Shown here piece by piece: positions 10,411 through 37,444 of a stretch of 64,000 nt of DNA. A program made the translations under genes and the position numbers. This DNA is from Dehalogenimonas sp. 4OHTPN (GTDB lineage Bacteria; Chloroflexota; Dehalococcoidia; Dehalococcoidales; Dehalococcoidaceae), in the NCBI RefSeq assembly GCF_040448695.1, contig NZ_CP159307.1:124001-188000 (forward strand). The letters are read 5' to 3'. Within the stretch, counting starts at the first letter, position 1, and each line of letters begins with the position of its first letter. A model generated the notes under the pieces. It saw only the letters and a program-made list of their open reading frames with translations. It made no database searches and was not told where the DNA came from.

Positions 10411-11928
10411 TTACTGACTCTTAACCGTGGAGGTAAGGGTAGAATCGATGCCGAATTGCGGCAGGGAGGCATTCCACCACTCTTCCGGATCCTCGAAGGC
10501 GCCGTAGCCGAAGGTCCGGCCCATGTTGGCCAGGAAGCCGTTGAAGATGGGCACGTAGGAGATGGTCGATTTCAACACGGTATGGACCATCGCTCCGCTG
10601 CCGGTGGAGAAGGTGCAATTGGCGGCGCAGGCGGAACAGCCGGAGCCGGGGATGAATTCGTTAACGTAGTTTCTGCAGCCAGAACCATCGTAGTAGAACC
10701 GCTTCATCCCGGAGATGTGCTGGGTGTCGGGTTTGCCGTTGATGGGCGGCATATCGTAACTTGGATCCCCGGCATCCAATCCCTGAATGGAGTTGGACGG
10801 GCATGAGTCTGCGCAGATGCCGCAGGTCTTGCAGAACCGCCACAAGCCGGCGTCAATTGGATGAGTCTCAGCCAGCGGCATATCGGTGATCTGGCAGAGG
10901 TCGGTGCTCCGGGGGCCCCAGGAAGGAGAGATCACCCAGTTAGTCATTCGGGCGGCCTCGGCTTTGCCGGTAAATACAGCTACGCCAGGGGTCTGGAAGC
11001 AGTCGGTGCCGTGGCCGGTGCCGCCGAACATGTTATAGCCCAGAGCTCTCATGAAGTTATAAGTGCTGTAGAAGGCGATGTTGCGGGTGCCGGAGTTGGC
11101 CACCAGATTCGATTTCGAGATTCTGGAAGGATAGGTCCGGTCGGTTTCTCTGGGTTCCGGGCCACCGAGATAGAGTACATTCAAGTCTTTGTTGGCCGGG
11201 ATGACCCATTTTTCCGCGGTGTAGTACGGTTGGTCAACATTCTCGTAGACAATGGGCCTGGCGGCTGTCGGCGGGACGTTGGCAGGATCGGTGTCGATCC
11301 ACTGGGAACCGGTCGAACTGCCCTTTTCATTAAAGGCTACCAGCTTGGTCCGCCAGGTGCTGTCGAGGTTGTTGAAGCCGGCCTCGGCCATGCCGAACAG
11401 CCTGATGGCGGCTACCACCAGCTTTGCGTTCTCTTCAGGAGACGCCTGCCACTTGGGCACGCCCAGGGATTCCGGGGTGGCGGCGGTGATCTTGCCGCTG
11501 ACTTCGGGGCCGAGGTAGGACACAGACCACTTGTTGGACTGGCTGAGACCGGTCCTCAGAGCTTCCCATTTGTGACCGAAGCCGGGCACATTGTCCTTCA
11601 TCCTTTGCGCCTGAAGCGCACCAGATTCGGCGTCAATCTTTTCGACATACGCCTTTCCGTAATACTTGGCGCGGATATTGGAGCATTGGCCCATGTAGCG
11701 GCGGTCGTAGCGGTGGATCACATTCCAGTCTATCTCCATTGTAGGATCCAGGCGCTCGCGCTCCTTGACATACCAGGGATGCTTCTGCAGATTGTCGCCG
11801 GAGGCGACGACTTCGTCCAGATCATGAAAGTTCGGGGCGACCAGGGCGGCCGCGCCGGTGCCGGCGCCAGCCAGGCCGATGGCTTTCATGAACTGCCGGC
11901 GGCTCATTGTGCTGTGAAAAACGGACAT
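10411..11928 (-). CDS. rdhA: Reductive dehalogenase catalytic subunit RdhA (copy 2)
   Basis: This 505-aa protein has a Tat signal (SRRQFMKAIGLAG near residue 10), the Fe-S motif CX2CX2CX3CP at Cys366, 369, 372 and 376, and a second cluster with Cys418, 431, 434 and 438 (final CX2CX3C). ATG at 11928 is preferred over the longer frame because it begins the Tat peptide, follows a GGAAAG-type ribosome site and matches the start of copy 3. It is closely similar to copy 3, differing only at scattered positions, so the two are recent tandem duplicates. No rdhB is adjacent. It has its own promoter module (11960-12056) and a bidirectional terminator. The dechlorination substrate is unknown. Confidence 0.95.
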   Translation of the reverse strand: MSVFHSTMSRRQFMKAIGLAGAGTGAAALVAPNFHDLDEVVASGDNLQKHPWYVKERERLDPTMEIDWNVIHRYDRRYMGQCSNIRAKYYGKAYVEKIDAESGALQAQRMKDNVPGFGHKWEALRTGLSQSNKWSVSYLGPEVSGKITAATPESLGVPKWQASPEENAKLVVAAIRLFGMAEAGFNNLDSTWRTKLVAFNEKGSSTGSQWIDTDPANVPPTAARPIVYENVDQPYYTAEKWVIPANKDLNVLYLGGPEPRETDRTYPSRISKSNLVANSGTRNIAFYSTYNFMRALGYNMFGGTGHGTDCFQTPGVAVFTGKAEAARMTNWVISPSWGPRSTDLCQITDMPLAETHPIDAGLWRFCKTCGICADSCPSNSIQGLDAGDPSYDMPPINGKPDTQHISGMKRFYYDGSGCRNYVNEFIPGSGCSACAANCTFSTGSGAMVHTVLKSTISYVPIFNGFLANMGRTFGYGAFEDPEEWWNASLPQFGIDSTLTSTVKSQ

Positions 11929-11959
11929 ACGGTTTTCCTTTCTTTCCATATTTTTCTTC

Positions 11960-12056
11960 AGCCTACAACCTGGCACACTAAAGGTAAATACGCATTTATG
12001 CCGATTTATGTTCGTTAATGCTCCGTTTGTAGCTAGGTATTAATTACAATTAATCT
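11960..12056 (-). promoter_or_regulatory. rdh promoter module (rdhA copy 2)
   Basis: Read on the minus strand, the module holds an inverted repeat ATTAAT-N4-ATTAAT (12054-12039), then two identical heptamers CATAAAT at 12010-12004 and 12000-11994 (10-bp period), then TATTTAC (11990-11984) at the -35 position, exactly 18 bp, and TAGGCT (11965-11960) as the -10. The heptamer block matches the copy 4 module at all but one base. Transcription would start about 25 bp before the ATG. The binding of the neighbouring response regulator is inference. Confidence 0.7.
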
Positions 12057-12163
12057 CGTCAGGGCTATGATTTTTAACTTTTAGGGTAATATTCTGTGTG
12101 TAATAAGAAAATGGTTTAGCGAAGCAGTATCGGCGAATGCCGGATAGTAGTTGATAAAGTCGC

Positions 12164-12201
12164 AAAAACACGAGATGGGCTCCGCTGGGAGCCCATCTCG
12201 T
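12164..12201 (-). terminator. Terminator of rdhA copy 3
   Basis: A long perfect stem (12170-12180 with 12191-12201, core CGAGATGGGC) is followed on the minus strand by a T5 run (12168-12164). Confidence 0.88.
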
Positions 12202-12224
12202 GAATTCTTGAATGAGGTTATGTT

Positions 12225-13736
12225 CTACTGGCTCTTGACCGTGGAGGTGAGAGTAGAATCGATGCCGAATTGCGGCAGGGAGGCGTTCCAGAACTGCTCC
12301 GGATCCTCGTAGGGACCGTAGCCGAAGGTCCGGCCCATGTTGGCGAGGAAGGTGTTGAAGATCGGAACATAGGAAATGGTGGTCTTCAACACGGAGTGGA
12401 CCATAGCACCGCTGCCGGTGGAGAAAGTGCAGTGGGCGGCGCAGGCGGAACAGCCGGAGCCAGGATAGGTTTCCTTGGTCCAGTTATTGCAGGATGAACC
12501 ATTAAAGTAGTACATCTTGCGGCCGGTGGCATGCTGGGTGTCGGCGACGCCGTTGATGTCCGGGATTTCGAAGGTCGGCTCGAAGCCTTTTTTCGGAATC
12601 GATTCGGAAGGGCAGGCGTCGGCGCAGATGCCGCAACTCTGGCAGAAGCGCCATAGGCCGGCATCGATCGGGTGAGTCTCAGCCAGCGGCATGTCGGTGA
12701 TTTGGCAGAGATCAGTGCTGCGGGGACCCCAAGAAGGAGAGATTACCCAGTTGCTCATGCGAGCGTTCTCCGCTTTACCAGTCAGGACGGCCACGCCCGG
12801 CGTCTGGAAGCAGTCGGTGCCGTGACCGGTGCCGCCGACCAAGTTGTAACCGAGAGCCCTGAAGAAATTGTAGGTGCTGTAGAAGGCGATGTTGCGGGTG
12901 CCGGAGTTAGCAACCAGGTTGGACTTACTGATGCGGGACGGGAAGGTCCGGTCGGTTTCGCGAGGTTCCGGGCCGCCCAGGTAAACCACCCACTGATCCT
13001 TGGTGGGAACTACCCACTTGGTGGTGGTGTAGTAAGGCTCAGCGACATCTTCGTAAACAATCGGGCGGGCGGCGGTATCCGGAACATTGGCCGGATCGGT
13101 GTCGATCCACTGCATGCCGGTGGAGGAACCCTTCTCGTTCTTGGCCACCAGCTTGGTCCGCCAGGTGCTGTCAAGATGGTTGAAGCCGGCTTCAGCCATG
13201 CCGAACAGCCTGATGGCGGCCACCACCAGCTTTGCGTTCTCTTCCGGGGTAGCCTGCCACTTGGGCACGCCCAGAGATTCCGGAGTGGCCGCGGTGATCT
13301 TGCCGCTTACTTCAGGTCCCAGGAATGATACAGACCATTTGTTGGACTGGCTGAGACCGACGCGCAAGGCTTCCCACTTGTGACCGAAGCCCGGCAGGTT
13401 TTCAACAAGTTGCTTCTTGGCGAGAGCGCCGGAATTGGCGTCGGTATCGACAACCCGCTGCCGGCCGAGGTACTTGGAGCGGATGTTGGCGCACTGGCCC
13501 ATATAACGCCGGTCGTAGCGCTGCATGAGGTCGAAGTCCAGTTCGACGGTGGGATCCAGGCGCTCGCGCTCCTTGACATACCAAGGATGCTTTTGGAGAT
13601 TGTCGCCGGAAGCGACAACTTCGTCCAGGTCATGGAAATTGGGACCGACCAGGGCGGCCGCGCCGGTGCCGGCGCCAGCCAAGCCGATGGCTTTCATGAA
13701 CTGCCGACGGCTCATTGTGCTGTGAAAAATGGACAT
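12225..13736 (-). CDS. rdhA: Reductive dehalogenase catalytic subunit RdhA (copy 3)
   Basis: This 503-aa protein is a near-duplicate of copy 2: the same Tat peptide, SQSNKWSVS segment and C-terminus (LPQFGIDSTLTSTVKSQ), with the Fe-S motifs CQSCGICADACP and, later, CSACAAHC preceded by a distant Cys. The open frame extends 225 codons further upstream, but that part is antisense to copy 4; ATG at 13736 starts the Tat signal and has a ribosome site (AAAGGAAA). It lies 296 bp from copy 2 and has its own promoter module and terminator, so the duplicates are independent transcription units. No rdhB is adjacent. Divergence between the copies is concentrated around residues 60-105 and 385-425, which may alter substrate range. 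Confidence 0.95.
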   Translation of the reverse strand: MSIFHSTMSRRQFMKAIGLAGAGTGAAALVGPNFHDLDEVVASGDNLQKHPWYVKERERLDPTVELDFDLMQRYDRRYMGQCANIRSKYLGRQRVVDTDANSGALAKKQLVENLPGFGHKWEALRVGLSQSNKWSVSFLGPEVSGKITAATPESLGVPKWQATPEENAKLVVAAIRLFGMAEAGFNHLDSTWRTKLVAKNEKGSSTGMQWIDTDPANVPDTAARPIVYEDVAEPYYTTTKWVVPTKDQWVVYLGGPEPRETDRTFPSRISKSNLVANSGTRNIAFYSTYNFFRALGYNLVGGTGHGTDCFQTPGVAVLTGKAENARMSNWVISPSWGPRSTDLCQITDMPLAETHPIDAGLWRFCQSCGICADACPSESIPKKGFEPTFEIPDINGVADTQHATGRKMYYFNGSSCNNWTKETYPGSGCSACAAHCTFSTGSGAMVHSVLKTTISYVPIFNTFLANMGRTFGYGPYEDPEQFWNASLPQFGIDSTLTSTVKSQ

Positions 13737-13764
13737 ATTTTTCCTTTCTTTTTTAATTAAATTT

Positions 13765-13861
13765 ATACTACAACCTAATGTGGCAAACGTAAATACGCAT
13801 CTATGCTGATTTATTTTTATTAATCCGCCGAGGATAGCCAAAGATAAATAAACATTAATGA
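13765..13861 (-). promoter_or_regulatory. rdh promoter module (rdhA copy 3)
   Basis: It has the same architecture and spacing as the copy 2 and copy 4 modules: a decayed inverted repeat (13842-13861), heptamers AATAAAT (13815-13809) and CATAGAT (13805-13799), TATTTAC (13795-13789) at -35, 18 bp, and TAGTAT (13770-13765) as -10. The heptamers carry single substitutions relative to the other two. Confidence 0.68.
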
Positions 13862-13890
13862 GAGCTCGCCACGTTGATACGAACTCCGTT

Positions 13891-13926
13891 AATAAAAGGA
13901 GAGGGCTTCTTGAAGAAGCCCTCTCC
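13891..13926 (-). terminator. Terminator of rdhA copy 4
   Basis: A perfect 13-bp stem with a 3-nt loop (13898-13926, GGAGAGGGCTTCT and its complement) is followed by TTTTATT on the minus strand (13897-13891). Confidence 0.92.
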
Positions 13927-13948
13927 CGGATAACCGTTGGCGTCAGGT

Positions 13949-15463
13949 TTAGTAGCCCATGTCGCGGGCATAGACGGTGGAATCGAAGCCATAAGCCGGC
14001 AGGGAGGAGTGCCACCACTTCTCGACCGCCTCGCCTTCCTTCAGGCCGTAGCCCATGATATCGTGCATCGAGGCGAAGAAGGAGTTGAAGATGCCGGTGG
14101 TGGATGCCGTGGCCTTGACCACCTGGTGGATCATGGCGGAGTTGGCGCCGTTGAAGACGCAGTGGCCCCAGCAGACGTTGCAGACGCCGACCGACCGCTG
14201 GTAGATCTGGCTGGAGGGCATGTCCGTCCAGAAGGTCTTGCGGCCCAGCTTGGCCCACTCGCCGCTGGTGCGGATGCCTTCCCAGGGCAGCTGGTAGACT
14301 TTCGGACCCAAGGAGGACGGTTTCGGGCCTTCCCAGCTCGGCTGGCTCTCGCCCTTCTTTTCGATCGAGCCGGACGGGCAGTAGTCGGCGCACAGACCGC
14401 AGGACTGGCACATCCGCCAGATGCCGGCGTCAATGGGCTTGGTGTGGGCGATGGGCAGGGTGGTCAGGAAATCGAAGTAGCCGCCGAAAGCGCCGAACTC
14501 GGGGCTGATGGACATGATGGTGTGGCGGGAGTTCTCAGTGAGGCCGCCCAGAACCGCGCCGGAGTTGGAGGGATTCCAGCGGTAAGGCTCATCATGCATG
14601 CTCTCGTAGCCGAGGCCGGTGATGAAGGCCTGGGTGCAGGCGCGGGGTACTTCGCGCAGGCGGTAGCGGGTCTGGGTCAGGCGGCCTAGCACCGTCGGGC
14701 GCATCCGGTTCAGGTCGTTGTCCTGCGGGATGAGGTAGCAGACGTTGTAAAGCGGTTTGTTGGGCAGGTAGGTGATGCCCGTTTTTTCATCCCAGCGGAA
14801 AGAGGTATCGGTCTGGGAGAAGACGACCGGTTTGGTGACGGTGGTCGGCGGCTGTTTGTCCCAGTAGGTGATGCCGGGATTCTCGCCGGTGATGCCCATC
14901 AGTTTCCGGTGATGATCGTCGAGTTCGGCGGTGGCGATGTCGGCGGCGCCGAAGAAGACCATAGCAGAACGAAGCATGATCAAGCCCTCTTCCGGAGTGC
15001 CGGTCCACTTGGGCACACCGCGGGCTTCAGGGGTAGTGACATTCTTGATCTGGCCGAATTTTTCGGCGATGGTGGCGATGCGCAGACCGCCGTTGGCGCC
15101 GGACAGGGCATGATCCTTTAACCGATAGCCGGGCTCATTGGCCTTGAGACGATCGGAGTCGGATTTCTCGGACCGGGTCATTGCGTTGTACTTCTCAACG
15201 CCGGTGTACTGGGCCACCAGGGCGGCGGATTGGGTCTGATAGCTGTAGTGCGGTTTCATCAGGTCCCAGTCGATCTCGACGGTCGGTTCATCAACTTCCT
15301 TGACCCACCAGGCGCGCTTCCGGGTGGTGACGCCGGACTGCATCAGTTCGTCCAGGTCGTGGAAGGCCGGGGAAACGGCGGCGGCGCCGCCCAGGCCGGC
15401 GCTGACGAAGCCCAGACCTTTCATGAAGTCGCGGCGGGAGACGGTGCTGTGAAATGCTGACAT
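13949..15463 (-). CDS. rdhA: Reductive dehalogenase catalytic subunit RdhA (copy 4)
   Basis: This 504-aa protein has the Tat signal SRRDFMKGLGFVSAG near residue 10, CX2CX2CX3CP at Cys352, 355, 358 and 362, and the second motif CX2CX3C at Cys428, 431 and 435. It is only distantly related to copies 2 and 3. It is the first gene left of the divergently transcribed two-component system, the usual arrangement for a regulated rdh operon, but as elsewhere in the window no rdhB follows; a strong terminator does. ATG at 15463 follows AAGGGG about 10 bases upstream. The family call is secure; the substrate is unknown. Confidence 0.95.
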   Translation of the reverse strand: MSAFHSTVSRRDFMKGLGFVSAGLGGAAAVSPAFHDLDELMQSGVTTRKRAWWVKEVDEPTVEIDWDLMKPHYSYQTQSAALVAQYTGVEKYNAMTRSEKSDSDRLKANEPGYRLKDHALSGANGGLRIATIAEKFGQIKNVTTPEARGVPKWTGTPEEGLIMLRSAMVFFGAADIATAELDDHHRKLMGITGENPGITYWDKQPPTTVTKPVVFSQTDTSFRWDEKTGITYLPNKPLYNVCYLIPQDNDLNRMRPTVLGRLTQTRYRLREVPRACTQAFITGLGYESMHDEPYRWNPSNSGAVLGGLTENSRHTIMSISPEFGAFGGYFDFLTTLPIAHTKPIDAGIWRMCQSCGLCADYCPSGSIEKKGESQPSWEGPKPSSLGPKVYQLPWEGIRTSGEWAKLGRKTFWTDMPSSQIYQRSVGVCNVCWGHCVFNGANSAMIHQVVKATASTTGIFNSFFASMHDIMGYGLKEGEAVEKWWHSSLPAYGFDSTVYARDMGY

Positions 15464-15498
15464 ACCTTAACCCCTTTCAATTAATTTGCTATGTGTAG

Positions 15499-15595
15499 AA
15501 TCTACATCTGAATCGAAAGGGAGTAAATACGCATTTATGCCGATTTATGTTTGTTAATCCGCCCTTCGAAGGTAAAGATTAATAACTTTTAATCT
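15499..15595 (-). promoter_or_regulatory. rdh promoter module (rdhA copy 4)
   Basis: On the minus strand there is a perfect inverted repeat AGATTAA-N6-TTAATCT (15595-15576), heptamers CATAAAT at 15549-15543 and 15539-15533, TATTTAC (15529-15523), exactly 18 bp, and TAGATT (15504-15499) as -10. A short palindrome TGTAGA-T-TCTACA overlaps the -10. The flanking bases differ from the other two modules, so the shared parts look selected rather than merely copied. Confidence 0.72.
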
Positions 15596-15710: not shown

Positions 15711-16898
15711 ATGATTCATCATCCGCCGCTCCGAGGACAGAGATTGAACGTAGCGAAACCAGTTGACCTGCTTTACCGCGCCGTCTTTGAGAATGCCGGC
15801 GACGCCATTATCATCTGGCGCCGCGCGAACGGCTCGGAAGTCTTAAAGATCATTGACGCCAACCCCGCCGCCTGCCGCCGACTCGGCTACACCAGGGACG
15901 AAATGATCCGCCTGACTGACGCCGACCTCAACGCGCCGGACAGCCTGCGCCGCAGCCGGGAAATACTTGCCGCTCCCTCAGACAACGGGAAGCTGACCCT
16001 GGAGGTGGCGCTCCTGACTAGAAGCGGGCAGGAACTGCCATCGGAAGCGAATTGCCAGGTTTTCATTATGGATGGACGCCCGGCCATCGTCGCTGTTTAT
16101 AGGGATATAGCCGAGCGCAAGGAACAGGAAGAACGCCGGCAGCGGGCGCTGGAGCATGAAACTTCGCTGCGGTCCAAGCTGGAAGCAGATACCGATATGC
16201 GCACCAATTACACCCGGGCGCTGGTGCACGAGCTCAAAACGCCGCTGACCCTGCTCATGGCTTCTAGCGATTTCCTGGTATCTCATATAAAGGAAGAACC
16301 GCTGCTGTCCTTTGCCAAGAATATCAGCTTCGGCGCCGCTTCGATCAACCGCCGCATCGATGAGCTGCACGACCTGATGAAGCTAGAGATGGGCTCGTTG
16401 CAGTTGGAGTTTTACCCGGTGCCCACCCGCCGGCTCCTCAGCGACATCGCCGCCTTCGCCCGGCCGGCGGCGGAACGCAGTGAACTGGCTTTCAACGTCG
16501 AATTGCCGGCAAGGCTGCCGACTGTCCTGGGAGACCGGGAGCGGCTGCAACAGGTGATCATGAACCTGCTGAACAACGCCTTCAAGTACACCCCTAAAGG
16601 CGGTTCGGTCTGGCTGAAGGCTTATACTCGCGCAGGCGAGCTGATCATCGAGGTCAGAGACACCGGCTGCGGCATACCTGAAGATGCCCAGCAGGCACTG
16701 TTCCAGCCTTACCAGCGCCGGGATCCCAGCCATCAGCGTAAAGACGGCCTGGGGCTGGGGCTGGCCATAACCAAAGCGATTGTGGAAAGATATAAAGGCC
16801 GCATCTGGGTGGAAAGCCGCCCGGGCGCCGGCAGCCGCTTTTTCGTGGCGTTACCGACAACCAGGAGGAACTCTAAAAATGAAAGCGCTGATTGTTGA
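15711..16898 (+). CDS. Cytoplasmic PAS-domain histidine kinase
   Basis: This 395-aa sensor kinase has a PAS domain (about residues 20-135, FENAGDAIIIW), a short coiled linker, HisKA with phospho-acceptor His173 (LVHELKTPLT), and an HATPase domain with N-box NLLNNAFKYT, G1 DTGCGI and G2 GLGLGLAI. There are no membrane segments, so it senses a cytoplasmic signal, as is usual for kinases linked to rdh genes in Dehalococcoides. It is divergent from rdhA copy 4 and overlaps its response regulator by 20 bp. A TTG at 15744 has a better ribosome site (GAGGACAG) than the ATG at 15711 and may be the true start. The likely role is control of the neighbouring rdhA genes; the ligand is unknown. Confidence 0.92.
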   Translation: MIHHPPLRGQRLNVAKPVDLLYRAVFENAGDAIIIWRRANGSEVLKIIDANPAACRRLGYTRDEMIRLTDADLNAPDSLRRSREILAAPSDNGKLTLEVALLTRSGQELPSEANCQVFIMDGRPAIVAVYRDIAERKEQEERRQRALEHETSLRSKLEADTDMRTNYTRALVHELKTPLTLLMASSDFLVSHIKEEPLLSFAKNISFGAASINRRIDELHDLMKLEMGSLQLEFYPVPTRRLLSDIAAFARPAAERSELAFNVELPARLPTVLGDRERLQQVIMNLLNNAFKYTPKGGSVWLKAYTRAGELIIEVRDTGCGIPEDAQQALFQPYQRRDPSHQRKDGLGLGLAITKAIVERYKGRIWVESRPGAGSRFFVALPTTRRNSKNESADC

Positions 16899-17571
16899 CG
16901 ACGACGATGGCATCATCCAGCTTGTTTCGCTCTGCCTTATCCTGATCTGGCCTGACGTCAAGATAACCTGGACGCATCTTGGCGGCGAGGGCGCCGATCT
17001 GGTGCGCAGCGCCTCCCCCGACCTGGTGGTTTTGGATCTCGGGTTGCCGGACATGAGCGGCTTCGATGTCCTGAAGCGCATCCGCGCTTTTTCCAAAGTG
17101 CCGCTCATTGTCCTCACCGTCAGGAACGACGAGGTGGATGTGGTGCGGGCTTTCGAGCTCGGCGCCGATGACTATGTCACCAAACCGTTCCGCCAGTTCG
17201 AATTCCTGGCGCGGGTACGTTCAGCGGTGGCACGTTTCGTACCGGGACAGAACAAAGGAGAGGAGGTCAGGGCGGCCTTCGGCGATTTCCGGTTCGATTC
17301 CTCCTTCAGGAAGCTGGAATACCGCAACAAGACCATCGACCTGACGTCTACAGAAAGCGTCACCTTGCGCTGCCTGCTGGAAAACGCCGGCAAGGTTGTC
17401 ACACACAAAGCCATCGCCCAGCAGATCTGGGGCCACCCGGTGCCGGACGCGGTCAAGATTATCCGGGTCTATATCCGGCACCTGCGGGAAAAGATCGAGG
17501 CCGACCCCAACAATCCGACGCTGATTGTCACCAAAGCCGGCGAAGGCTACCTGTTCACCCGAACGGTGTAG
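16879..17571 (+). CDS. OmpR/PhoB-family response regulator
   Basis: This 230-aa protein has a receiver domain (acidic pocket VDDDD near residue 6, phospho-acceptor Asp53 in VVLDLGLPD, Lys in YVTKPF) and a C-terminal winged-helix DNA-binding domain (IWGHPV ... IIRVYIRHLREKIE). ATG at 16879 has a strong ribosome site (AGGAGGA) inside the kinase gene and overlaps it, so the two are translationally coupled. PhoB-type regulators bind as head-to-tail dimers to direct repeats with a 10-11-bp period; such heptamer repeats lie upstream of three rdhA genes just to the left. This makes it the prime candidate activator, by inference. Confidence 0.95.
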   Translation: MKALIVDDDDGIIQLVSLCLILIWPDVKITWTHLGGEGADLVRSASPDLVVLDLGLPDMSGFDVLKRIRAFSKVPLIVLTVRNDEVDVVRAFELGADDYVTKPFRQFEFLARVRSAVARFVPGQNKGEEVRAAFGDFRFDSSFRKLEYRNKTIDLTSTESVTLRCLLENAGKVVTHKAIAQQIWGHPVPDAVKIIRVYIRHLREKIEADPNNPTLIVTKAGEGYLFTRTV

Positions 17572-36915: not shown

Positions 36916-37027
36916 CTGCTTGCACCTCCCCGCGTGGTTACGCTGTAGCGATTATAGGCTGGCCTGACGCCGGAGCGCAAAAAGGGAGTGCCCGCCAACC
37001 AATTAATACTGGTTATGGTATGTTTTA

Positions 37028-37071
37028 AAAAAATCAGCATAAATGCTTAGTCCCACTCCGGGCATTTACGT
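37028..37071 (+). promoter_or_regulatory. Split rdh-type motif upstream of rdhB
   Basis: AAATCAGCATAAATGC (37031-37046) matches the heptamer region of the rdhA copy 3 module (AAATCAGCATAGATGC) with one difference, and ATTTACGTTTG (37064-37074 region) matches the segment that directly follows it there. In rdhB the two parts are separated by extra bases and lie 25-60 bp upstream of an otherwise strong promoter. This suggests shared control, but the altered geometry makes it tentative. Confidence 0.45.
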
Positions 37072-37174: not shown

Positions 37175-37444
37175 ATGTGGTTGGTAATCGGTCTTATCCT
37201 CGGCGCGCTCCTTATCTGGCTGGTCTCGTTCATGAAGGGCAAGGGCGTCACCATGCGCTGGTACGAGTGGATCCTCGGCCTCATCGGCTTGGCTCTATTA
37301 CTCTTCACCGTCCAGAACTACTTCGGTTCTCAGGCTGAGTTGGAGCCCACCGCCGCCAACATGTTCCTTCTGGTCACCGGCCTGCCGGCCCTGATCCTGC
37401 TCGCCATCACCTGGCAGCTGGTCATTCGCCACAAGGAGAGCTAA
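37175..37444 (+). CDS. rdhB: Orphan reductive dehalogenase membrane anchor RdhB
   Basis: This 89-aa protein has three membrane helices (residues about 2-18, 30-48 and 60-82) with the RdhB pattern: an N-terminal helix, then RWYEWILGLIGLALLLFTVQN, the exoplasmic loop SQAELEPTAANMF with its conserved glutamates, and a GLPAL-containing third helix. RdhB anchors the Tat-exported RdhA to the outer face of the membrane. No rdhA is adjacent: galU is divergent and a terminator follows. The ribosome site GGGAGG is well placed. The family assignment comes from length, topology and the WYEW/EPTAA motifs and is good; which RdhA it anchors is unknown. Confidence 0.88.
   Translation: MWLVIGLILGALLIWLVSFMKGKGVTMRWYEWILGLIGLALLLFTVQNYFGSQAELEPTAANMFLLVTGLPALILLAITWQLVIRHKES

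Follow-up and report, generated by a model that had tools for sequence, protein, structure and literature searches.

The genomes of organohalide-respiring Chloroflexota encode dozens of rdhA genes, for which substrate and control are mostly unknown and regulation has largely been guessed by gene adjacency. In Sulfurospirillum, binding of the OmpR-family regulator RR2 (PceP) of the two-component system TCS2 to an element CTATW-N17-CTATW has been demonstrated (PMC7755780), and the dehalobox TTAAT-N4-ATTAA of CprK/RdhK lies upstream of dehalogenase genes, with its site at -41.5 (PMC7062800). For Dehalococcoides mccartyi CBDB1, MarR-type repression of rdhA is on record (cited in PMC13390414), and a comparative study of 2026 inferred regulation from the adjacency of rdhPS, MarR and CRP/FNR genes (PMC13390414). 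Here we describe a control region found in three copies (modules m2, m3 and m4), each upstream of an rdhA gene, in a 64,000-nucleotide stretch of Dehalogenimonas sp. 4OHTPN (hereafter the window; positions 124001-188000 of C1, the single contig of the 1.75 Mb genome G000). Each copy combines two versions, E1 and E2, of an 18-bp element with a promoter core, R1, and a sensor histidine kinase and a response regulator are encoded next to m4. The shared control region suggests that one sensor system may switch on a set of pollutant-respiring enzymes together.

Among demonstrated cases, RR2/PceP is the nearest to the present locus, in that an OmpR-family regulator lies beside an rdh locus and several operons have repeats that overlap the -35 or precede it; the locus differs in the element itself, since CTATW-N17-CTATW is replaced by two predicted 18-bp sites, ATTAAT-N4-ATWAAT, about 35 bp apart. 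The kinase and regulator pair is of the same kind as the rdhPS systems of Dehalogenimonas and Dehalococcoides, in which a PAS-type histidine kinase and a response regulator adjoin rdhA; that survey, however, is about adjacency only, and its regulation section presents no cis element (PMC13390414), whereas the element reported here connects rdhA genes even where such a pair is not nearby. With CprK/RdhK the window shares the recognition sequence, but its two sites lie far upstream and no dedicated CRP/FNR gene is found beside the cluster (PMC7062800). The CBDB1 arrangement consists of a MarR gene divergent from rdhA and a promoter palindrome; it is matched by a further promoter class (L_B, see below), whereas the E1/E2-class promoters of the window have no adjacent MarR gene (PMC13390414). 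A published description of the motif was not found in the open literature, a search that left most subscription papers outside. A cis element predicting which rdhA genes are under the same sensor, even where no regulator is nearby, narrows the question of rdhA control down to a few regulons that can be tested, and such regulon prediction aids the reading of rdhA transcripts as bioremediation markers.

A promoter module upstream of rdhA genes

The first-pass annotation of the window had described three 97-bp modules with the same order and spacing of parts, and we could confirm these at 11960-12056, 13765-13861 and 15499-15595, all on the minus strand (Table 1). From upstream to downstream, each comprises an inverted repeat rich in A and T, a block of 38 bp with CATAAATGCGTATTTAC at its end (CATAGAT in m3), 17 bp, and TAGNNT, so that TTTACn is followed after 17 bp by TAGGCT, TAGTAT and TAGATT in m2, m3 and m4, respectively. 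The spacing is indeed identical within the window, but it relaxes in relatives, where the -10 spacer spans 16-18 bp and the E1-E2 distance 34-36 bp; likewise, the predicted repeat array is present but reaches one hexamer (ATTAAY) farther upstream than proposed. Pairwise, the modules agree at 65-68 of 97 bases, and the matches are concentrated in the parts (32-36 of 38 in the core region, 12-14 of 18 in the inverted repeat), whereas the spacers are near random (4-9 of 18 between -35 and -10, 8-9 of 16 upstream). Hence, as had been suggested, the modules reflect conservation of motifs rather than recent copying.

One 18-bp element, GATTAAT-N4-ATWAATC, is present twice in each module: as the inverted repeat (E1) and as the hexamer pair that precedes CATAAAT (E2). 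The earlier view of OmpR-type heptamers next to an unrelated inverted repeat is thus not supported. The E2 unit ATTAAYNAANATAAATCRGCAT occurs, with up to two mismatches, at 27 places in the 11 genomes tested (seven in G000, nine in G001, ten in G002 and one in G006), every one of them upstream of rdhA, while the reversed pattern yields 0-1 matches per genome. Two weaker copies raise the total to 29 upstream units, and in their alignment E1 and E2 are 34-36 bp apart at 27 of the 29 sites, the best E1 score averages 11.9 of 14 (background 7.1), and scores of at least 12 are reached at 18 sites as compared with 0.16% of background segments. At least eight rdhA promoters of G000 carry E1/E2, that is, the three in the window and those at about 39, 97, 806, 851 and 1712 kb. 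The dehalobox sequence TTAAT-N4-ATTAA is exact in E1 of m2, has one mismatch in E1 of m4 and is looser in E1 of m3; with up to one mismatch it is observed five times in the window (0.54 expected), four times inside modules. The strongest self-similarity of the modules is at lag 10, with core dyads scoring equally or higher, and the sequence alone fits both direct and inverted symmetry, ATTAAT being self-complementary.

The core R1 can be written as CATAAATGCGTATTTAC-N17-TANNNT or, in its 18-mer form with the -35 TTTAC, as GCATAAATGCGTATTTAC, which is observed three times in the window at 3 mismatches where chance predicts 0.01. With up to two mismatches the core is found at four places in G000, namely in the three modules and upstream of an rdhA at 1.712 Mb, and seven of the eight genomes of the genus (G000 to G007) contain matches, most of them a short way upstream of rdhA (reversed pattern, 0-1). 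The first-pass annotation had proposed a genome scan as a check, with random scatter and no rdh association as the refuting outcome, and the association with rdhA was borne out. A sequence-only model built from 24 modules, which had been picked for preceding rdhA, detected 46 distinct sites in the eight genomes at E <= 0.01, with stricter filters applied to G000 than to the others, and 41 of these are located directly upstream of rdhA (8/11 in G000, 13/13 in both G001 and G002, 5/5 in G003, 1/1 in G004, 0/2 in G005 and 1/1 in G007; at this threshold, no site was found in G006). Outside the training set, 17 of 22 sites precede rdhA. Nearly all of the 24 modules exhibit TTTACn, 16-18 bp and TANNNT, in agreement with the sigma-70 spacing of 17 +/- 1 bp. 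Judged from sequence, the modules are thus a genus-wide promoter type which is nearly specific to rdhA. The core with up to two mismatches is absent from three genomes of a second genus of the same family; two R1 sites in G059, from another family of the order, also precede rdhA, and the element is thus probably older than the genus.

R1 also occurs apart from E1/E2. CATAAAT and TATTTAC, formerly assigned to the regulator's binding site, belong to a separable core that is also present before rdhA genes without the regulator clade discussed below and beside MarR genes. An alternative core, R2 (GTACTAGTAC-N4-GKACGATG followed by a TATAAT-like box), is found behind E1/E2, and an alternative upstream unit, L_B (TTAAC-N6-TTAAC-NAAAAATACGCAT), is found in front of R1 in rdhA loci adjoining a MarR gene; all four combinations of upstream unit and core are observed. 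The idea that CATAAAT-CATAAAT-TATTTAC constitutes the regulator's own heptamer array is weakened, since R2 promoters have E1/E2 without it and L_B promoters have it without E1/E2.

Several further sites are related to this promoter type. In another family of the order, in G059 and G035 (loci L212, L225, L213, L222 and L223), a similar element, AAATTAGGCATAAATGCGGATTGACA, with a TTGACA -35, lies upstream of rdhA at two sites, the remaining ones being near contig ends. A match to the R1 model at 37025-37049 of the window is located upstream of 37175-37444, encoding an 89-residue membrane protein whose relatives elsewhere lie directly behind rdhA (e.g., at L164, L170 and L296), which points to an orphan rdhB-like gene; the site may be either a relic or a working rdh promoter. 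At G005:C1:1548882-1548939 (L250), a complete-looking rdh-type promoter, perhaps also a relic, has no rdhA that we could find behind it.

Table 1. Features of the rdhA cluster, in window coordinates
Feature	Position	Strand	Remarks
m2 putative operator E1, GATTAATTGTAATTAATA	12038..12055	-	13/14 vs GATTAAT-N4-ATWAATC; offset -35 from E2; inverted repeat of the first-pass annotation
m2 putative operator E2, CATTAACGAACATAAATC, then GGCAT	12003..12020	-	
m2 core R1, CATAAATGCGTATTTAC	11984..12000	-	includes -35 TTTAC (hexamer 11983-11988)
m2 -10 box TAGGCT	11960..11965	-	17 bp from TTTACC; transcription start predicted near 11953
rdhA behind m2	10411..11928	-	ATG likely 11928, from the sequence (open reading frame list: 11976); TIGR02486 1.1e-71 on listed frame
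m3 putative operator E1, CATTAATGTTTATTTATC	13843..13860	-	
m3 putative operator E2, GATTAATAAAAATAAATC	13808..13825	-	14/14 match
m3 core R1, CATAGATGCGTATTTAC	13789..13805	-	one mismatch to CATAAATGCGTATTTAC (CATAGAT)
m3 -10 box TAGTAT	13765..13770	-	
rdhA behind m3	12225..13736	-	ATG likely 13736; TIGR02486 7.4e-73 on 12225-13778
m4 putative operator E1, GATTAAAAGTTATTAATC	15577..15594	-	
m4 putative operator E2, GATTAACAAACATAAATC	15542..15559	-	
m4 core R1, CATAAATGCGTATTTAC	15523..15539	-	
m4 -10 box TAGATT	15499..15504	-	
rdhA behind m4 (504 aa)	13949..15463	-	TIGR02486 2.9e-63
Sensor histidine kinase (PAS, HisKA, HATPase_c), candidate sensor	15711..16898	+	divergent from m4 rdhA
OmpR/PhoB-type response regulator, candidate E1/E2 binder	16876..17571	+	Response_reg and Trans_reg_C on 16780-17571

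A candidate two-component system acting in trans

The response regulator adjacent to m4 had been put forward for a footprint on the modules, and co-occurrence and synteny make it the best candidate for binding them. (i) Orthologues with at least 62% identity (99%, 80% and 62%) exist, besides G000, only in G001 and G002, the best match in every other genome being at most 49%, and 26 of the 27 E2 units are located in these three genomes, two of which have near-identical regulators. (ii) In G000, G001 and G002 alike, the kinase and regulator pair is oriented divergently from an rdhA cluster that carries E1/E2. (iii) The putative recognition helix IRVYIRHLREKIE is unchanged in the 99% and 80% orthologues, and is altered to IRVYVNRLREKLE in the 62% paralogue of G002, which adjoins a module with a diverged E2. 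(iv) Of the five E1/E2 rdhA loci that G000 has outside the window, four have fetched flanks (of varying length, and no more than a few kb on the shorter side at the 97 kb locus) that contain no relatives of the kinase, response regulator, PAS-wHTH and MarR queries, which makes control in trans plausible; at the fifth, a PAS-wHTH gene is divergent from rdhA. A scan of the genome contigs with the regulator protein revealed distant response regulators only (at most 46% identity).

Taken together, the evidence is best explained by a single two-component system that acts in trans, and we propose, with moderate confidence, that the adjacent histidine kinase and response regulator control the E1/E2 rdhA promoters, at least eight in G000, through E1/E2. 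The modules would then represent regulated sigma-70-type rdhA promoters composed of operator E1, operator E2 (centres about 35 bp apart) and core R1, in which the phosphorylated response regulator would bind E1 and E2 and recruit RNA polymerase to a promoter with a weak -10. Co-regulation is the likeliest meaning of the modules, as first thought, but the set extends beyond the three genes originally considered: the three rdhA genes of the window and at least five elsewhere in the chromosome would be switched on together. From the sequences we infer binding of the regulator, its role as an activator and the joint response of the genes. Several points weigh against such a scheme. OmpR-family regulators usually bind direct repeats, whereas E, with its G...C flanks, looks palindromic; the co-occurrence comes from three genomes only, two of them having near-identical regulators; G006 has one E2-bearing rdhA promoter, possibly acquired by gene transfer, but no member of the regulator clade; and the CRP/FNR dehalobox, TTAAT-N4-ATTAA, is matched by E as well.

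Proteins comprising a PAS and an OmpR-type DNA-binding domain, devoid of a receiver, are encoded next to rdhA at G000:C1:39694-40431 (L296) and in G002 (L177:9417-10262); these PAS-wHTH one-component regulators look like a sensor kinase and a response regulator collapsed into a single protein.

Alternative regulators and recent duplication

E1 and E2 could instead be dehaloboxes of a CprK/RdhK-like CRP/FNR regulator which senses organohalides directly, the two-component system being a mere neighbour. Class I CRP sites occupy positions close to those of E1 and E2, which are centred near -93.5 and -58.5 from the predicted transcription start; the flanks of E are palindromic, and CRP/FNR proteins are present in G000. 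Moreover, E holds TTAAT-N4-ATTAA, exact at several sites, as does the paradigm Desulfitobacterium dehalobox TTAATacacATTAA (PMC7062800); that box, however, sits at -41.5, and both E1 and E2 are farther upstream. In G002, where ten E2 units occur, just two CRP/FNR proteins are encoded; these belong to two orthologue groups found in all eight genomes of the genus, of which four lack an E2 unit with up to two mismatches, and the recognition helices of these groups are largely conserved. By coordinates, none of the CRP/FNR genes found adjoins an E1/E2 rdhA, and none lies in the window cluster. Since the CRP/FNR groups occur in genomes with or without E, we keep this alternative but regard it as unlikely.

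Control by the two-component system through E1/E2 would be compatible with a MarR-type repressor occupying the core GCATAAATGCGTATTTAC over the -35, as in the Dehalococcoides MarR type, so that the window promoters would be repressed as well. Such an operator is apparent in L_B promoters, where the core forms a near-perfect palindrome, AAATACGCAT-AA-ATGCGTATTT, over the -35, the outer arms being retained even at sites with a disrupted central heptamer (G003_303, G004_895 and G007_19), and where an orthologous MarR (53-90% identity) is divergent to the L_B rdhA in G000 (64 kb), G001, G002 and G003; this class is probably MarR-controlled. In the window promoters, however, the left arm reads CRG instead of ACG and the palindrome is imperfect, MarR adjacency tracks L_B and not R1 (the adjacent core is R2 in G000 and G001), and a MarR gene was looked for and not found beside the m2-m4 cluster, so that repression of these promoters appears rather doubtful. 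That the modules are alike merely through recent duplication of rdhA together with its promoter, and share no regulation, is highly improbable, and we reject it: the upstream unit does track RdhA descent (one change, shuffled mean 14; see below) and tandem paralogues do exchange promoter and 5' gene parts, but operator and core have been kept while the far less conserved spacers were randomised, and m2 and m4 (68/97) are as similar as m2 and m3 (65/97) despite encoding proteins of about 34% and 80% identity, respectively.

Inheritance of upstream units and cores

We placed the promoter types on a tree built from 69 RdhA proteins, in which 45 of 65 inner branches have good support; unit and core labels were assigned by hand from the sequences, and module-less rdhA genes were excluded from the count. 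A single change of the upstream unit (A or B) suffices on this tree, whereas shuffled labels require 14 changes on average and 10 at minimum. For the core (R1 or R2) there are ten changes, about as many as at random (mean 12.2 and minimum 9 after shuffling), and core type is therefore not tied to descent. One exchange is directly visible in the rdhA at 64.0-66.1 kb of G000 (L167, ~64.7 kb), a chimera of tandem paralogues. Compared with a tandem pair in G001, the MarR gene, the promoter and the initial ~80 codons correspond to the first gene (87% identity at the DNA level) and the remainder to the second (79%), a case of promoter exchange through recombination. It is thus tempting to speculate, if only tentatively, that rdhA promoters of Dehalogenimonas follow a two-part code, in which the operator unit (E1/E2 serving one two-component system, or L_B serving a MarR or other regulator) is inherited with the enzyme clade and the core is repeatedly swapped, partly via recombination between tandem copies; one sensor would then serve many scattered rdhA genes, and core type would constitute a second input that evolves on its own. 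In addition, G000 encodes one RdhA protein sequence twice, in copies about 44 kb apart (C1:1426514-1427440 and C1:1470531-1471457).

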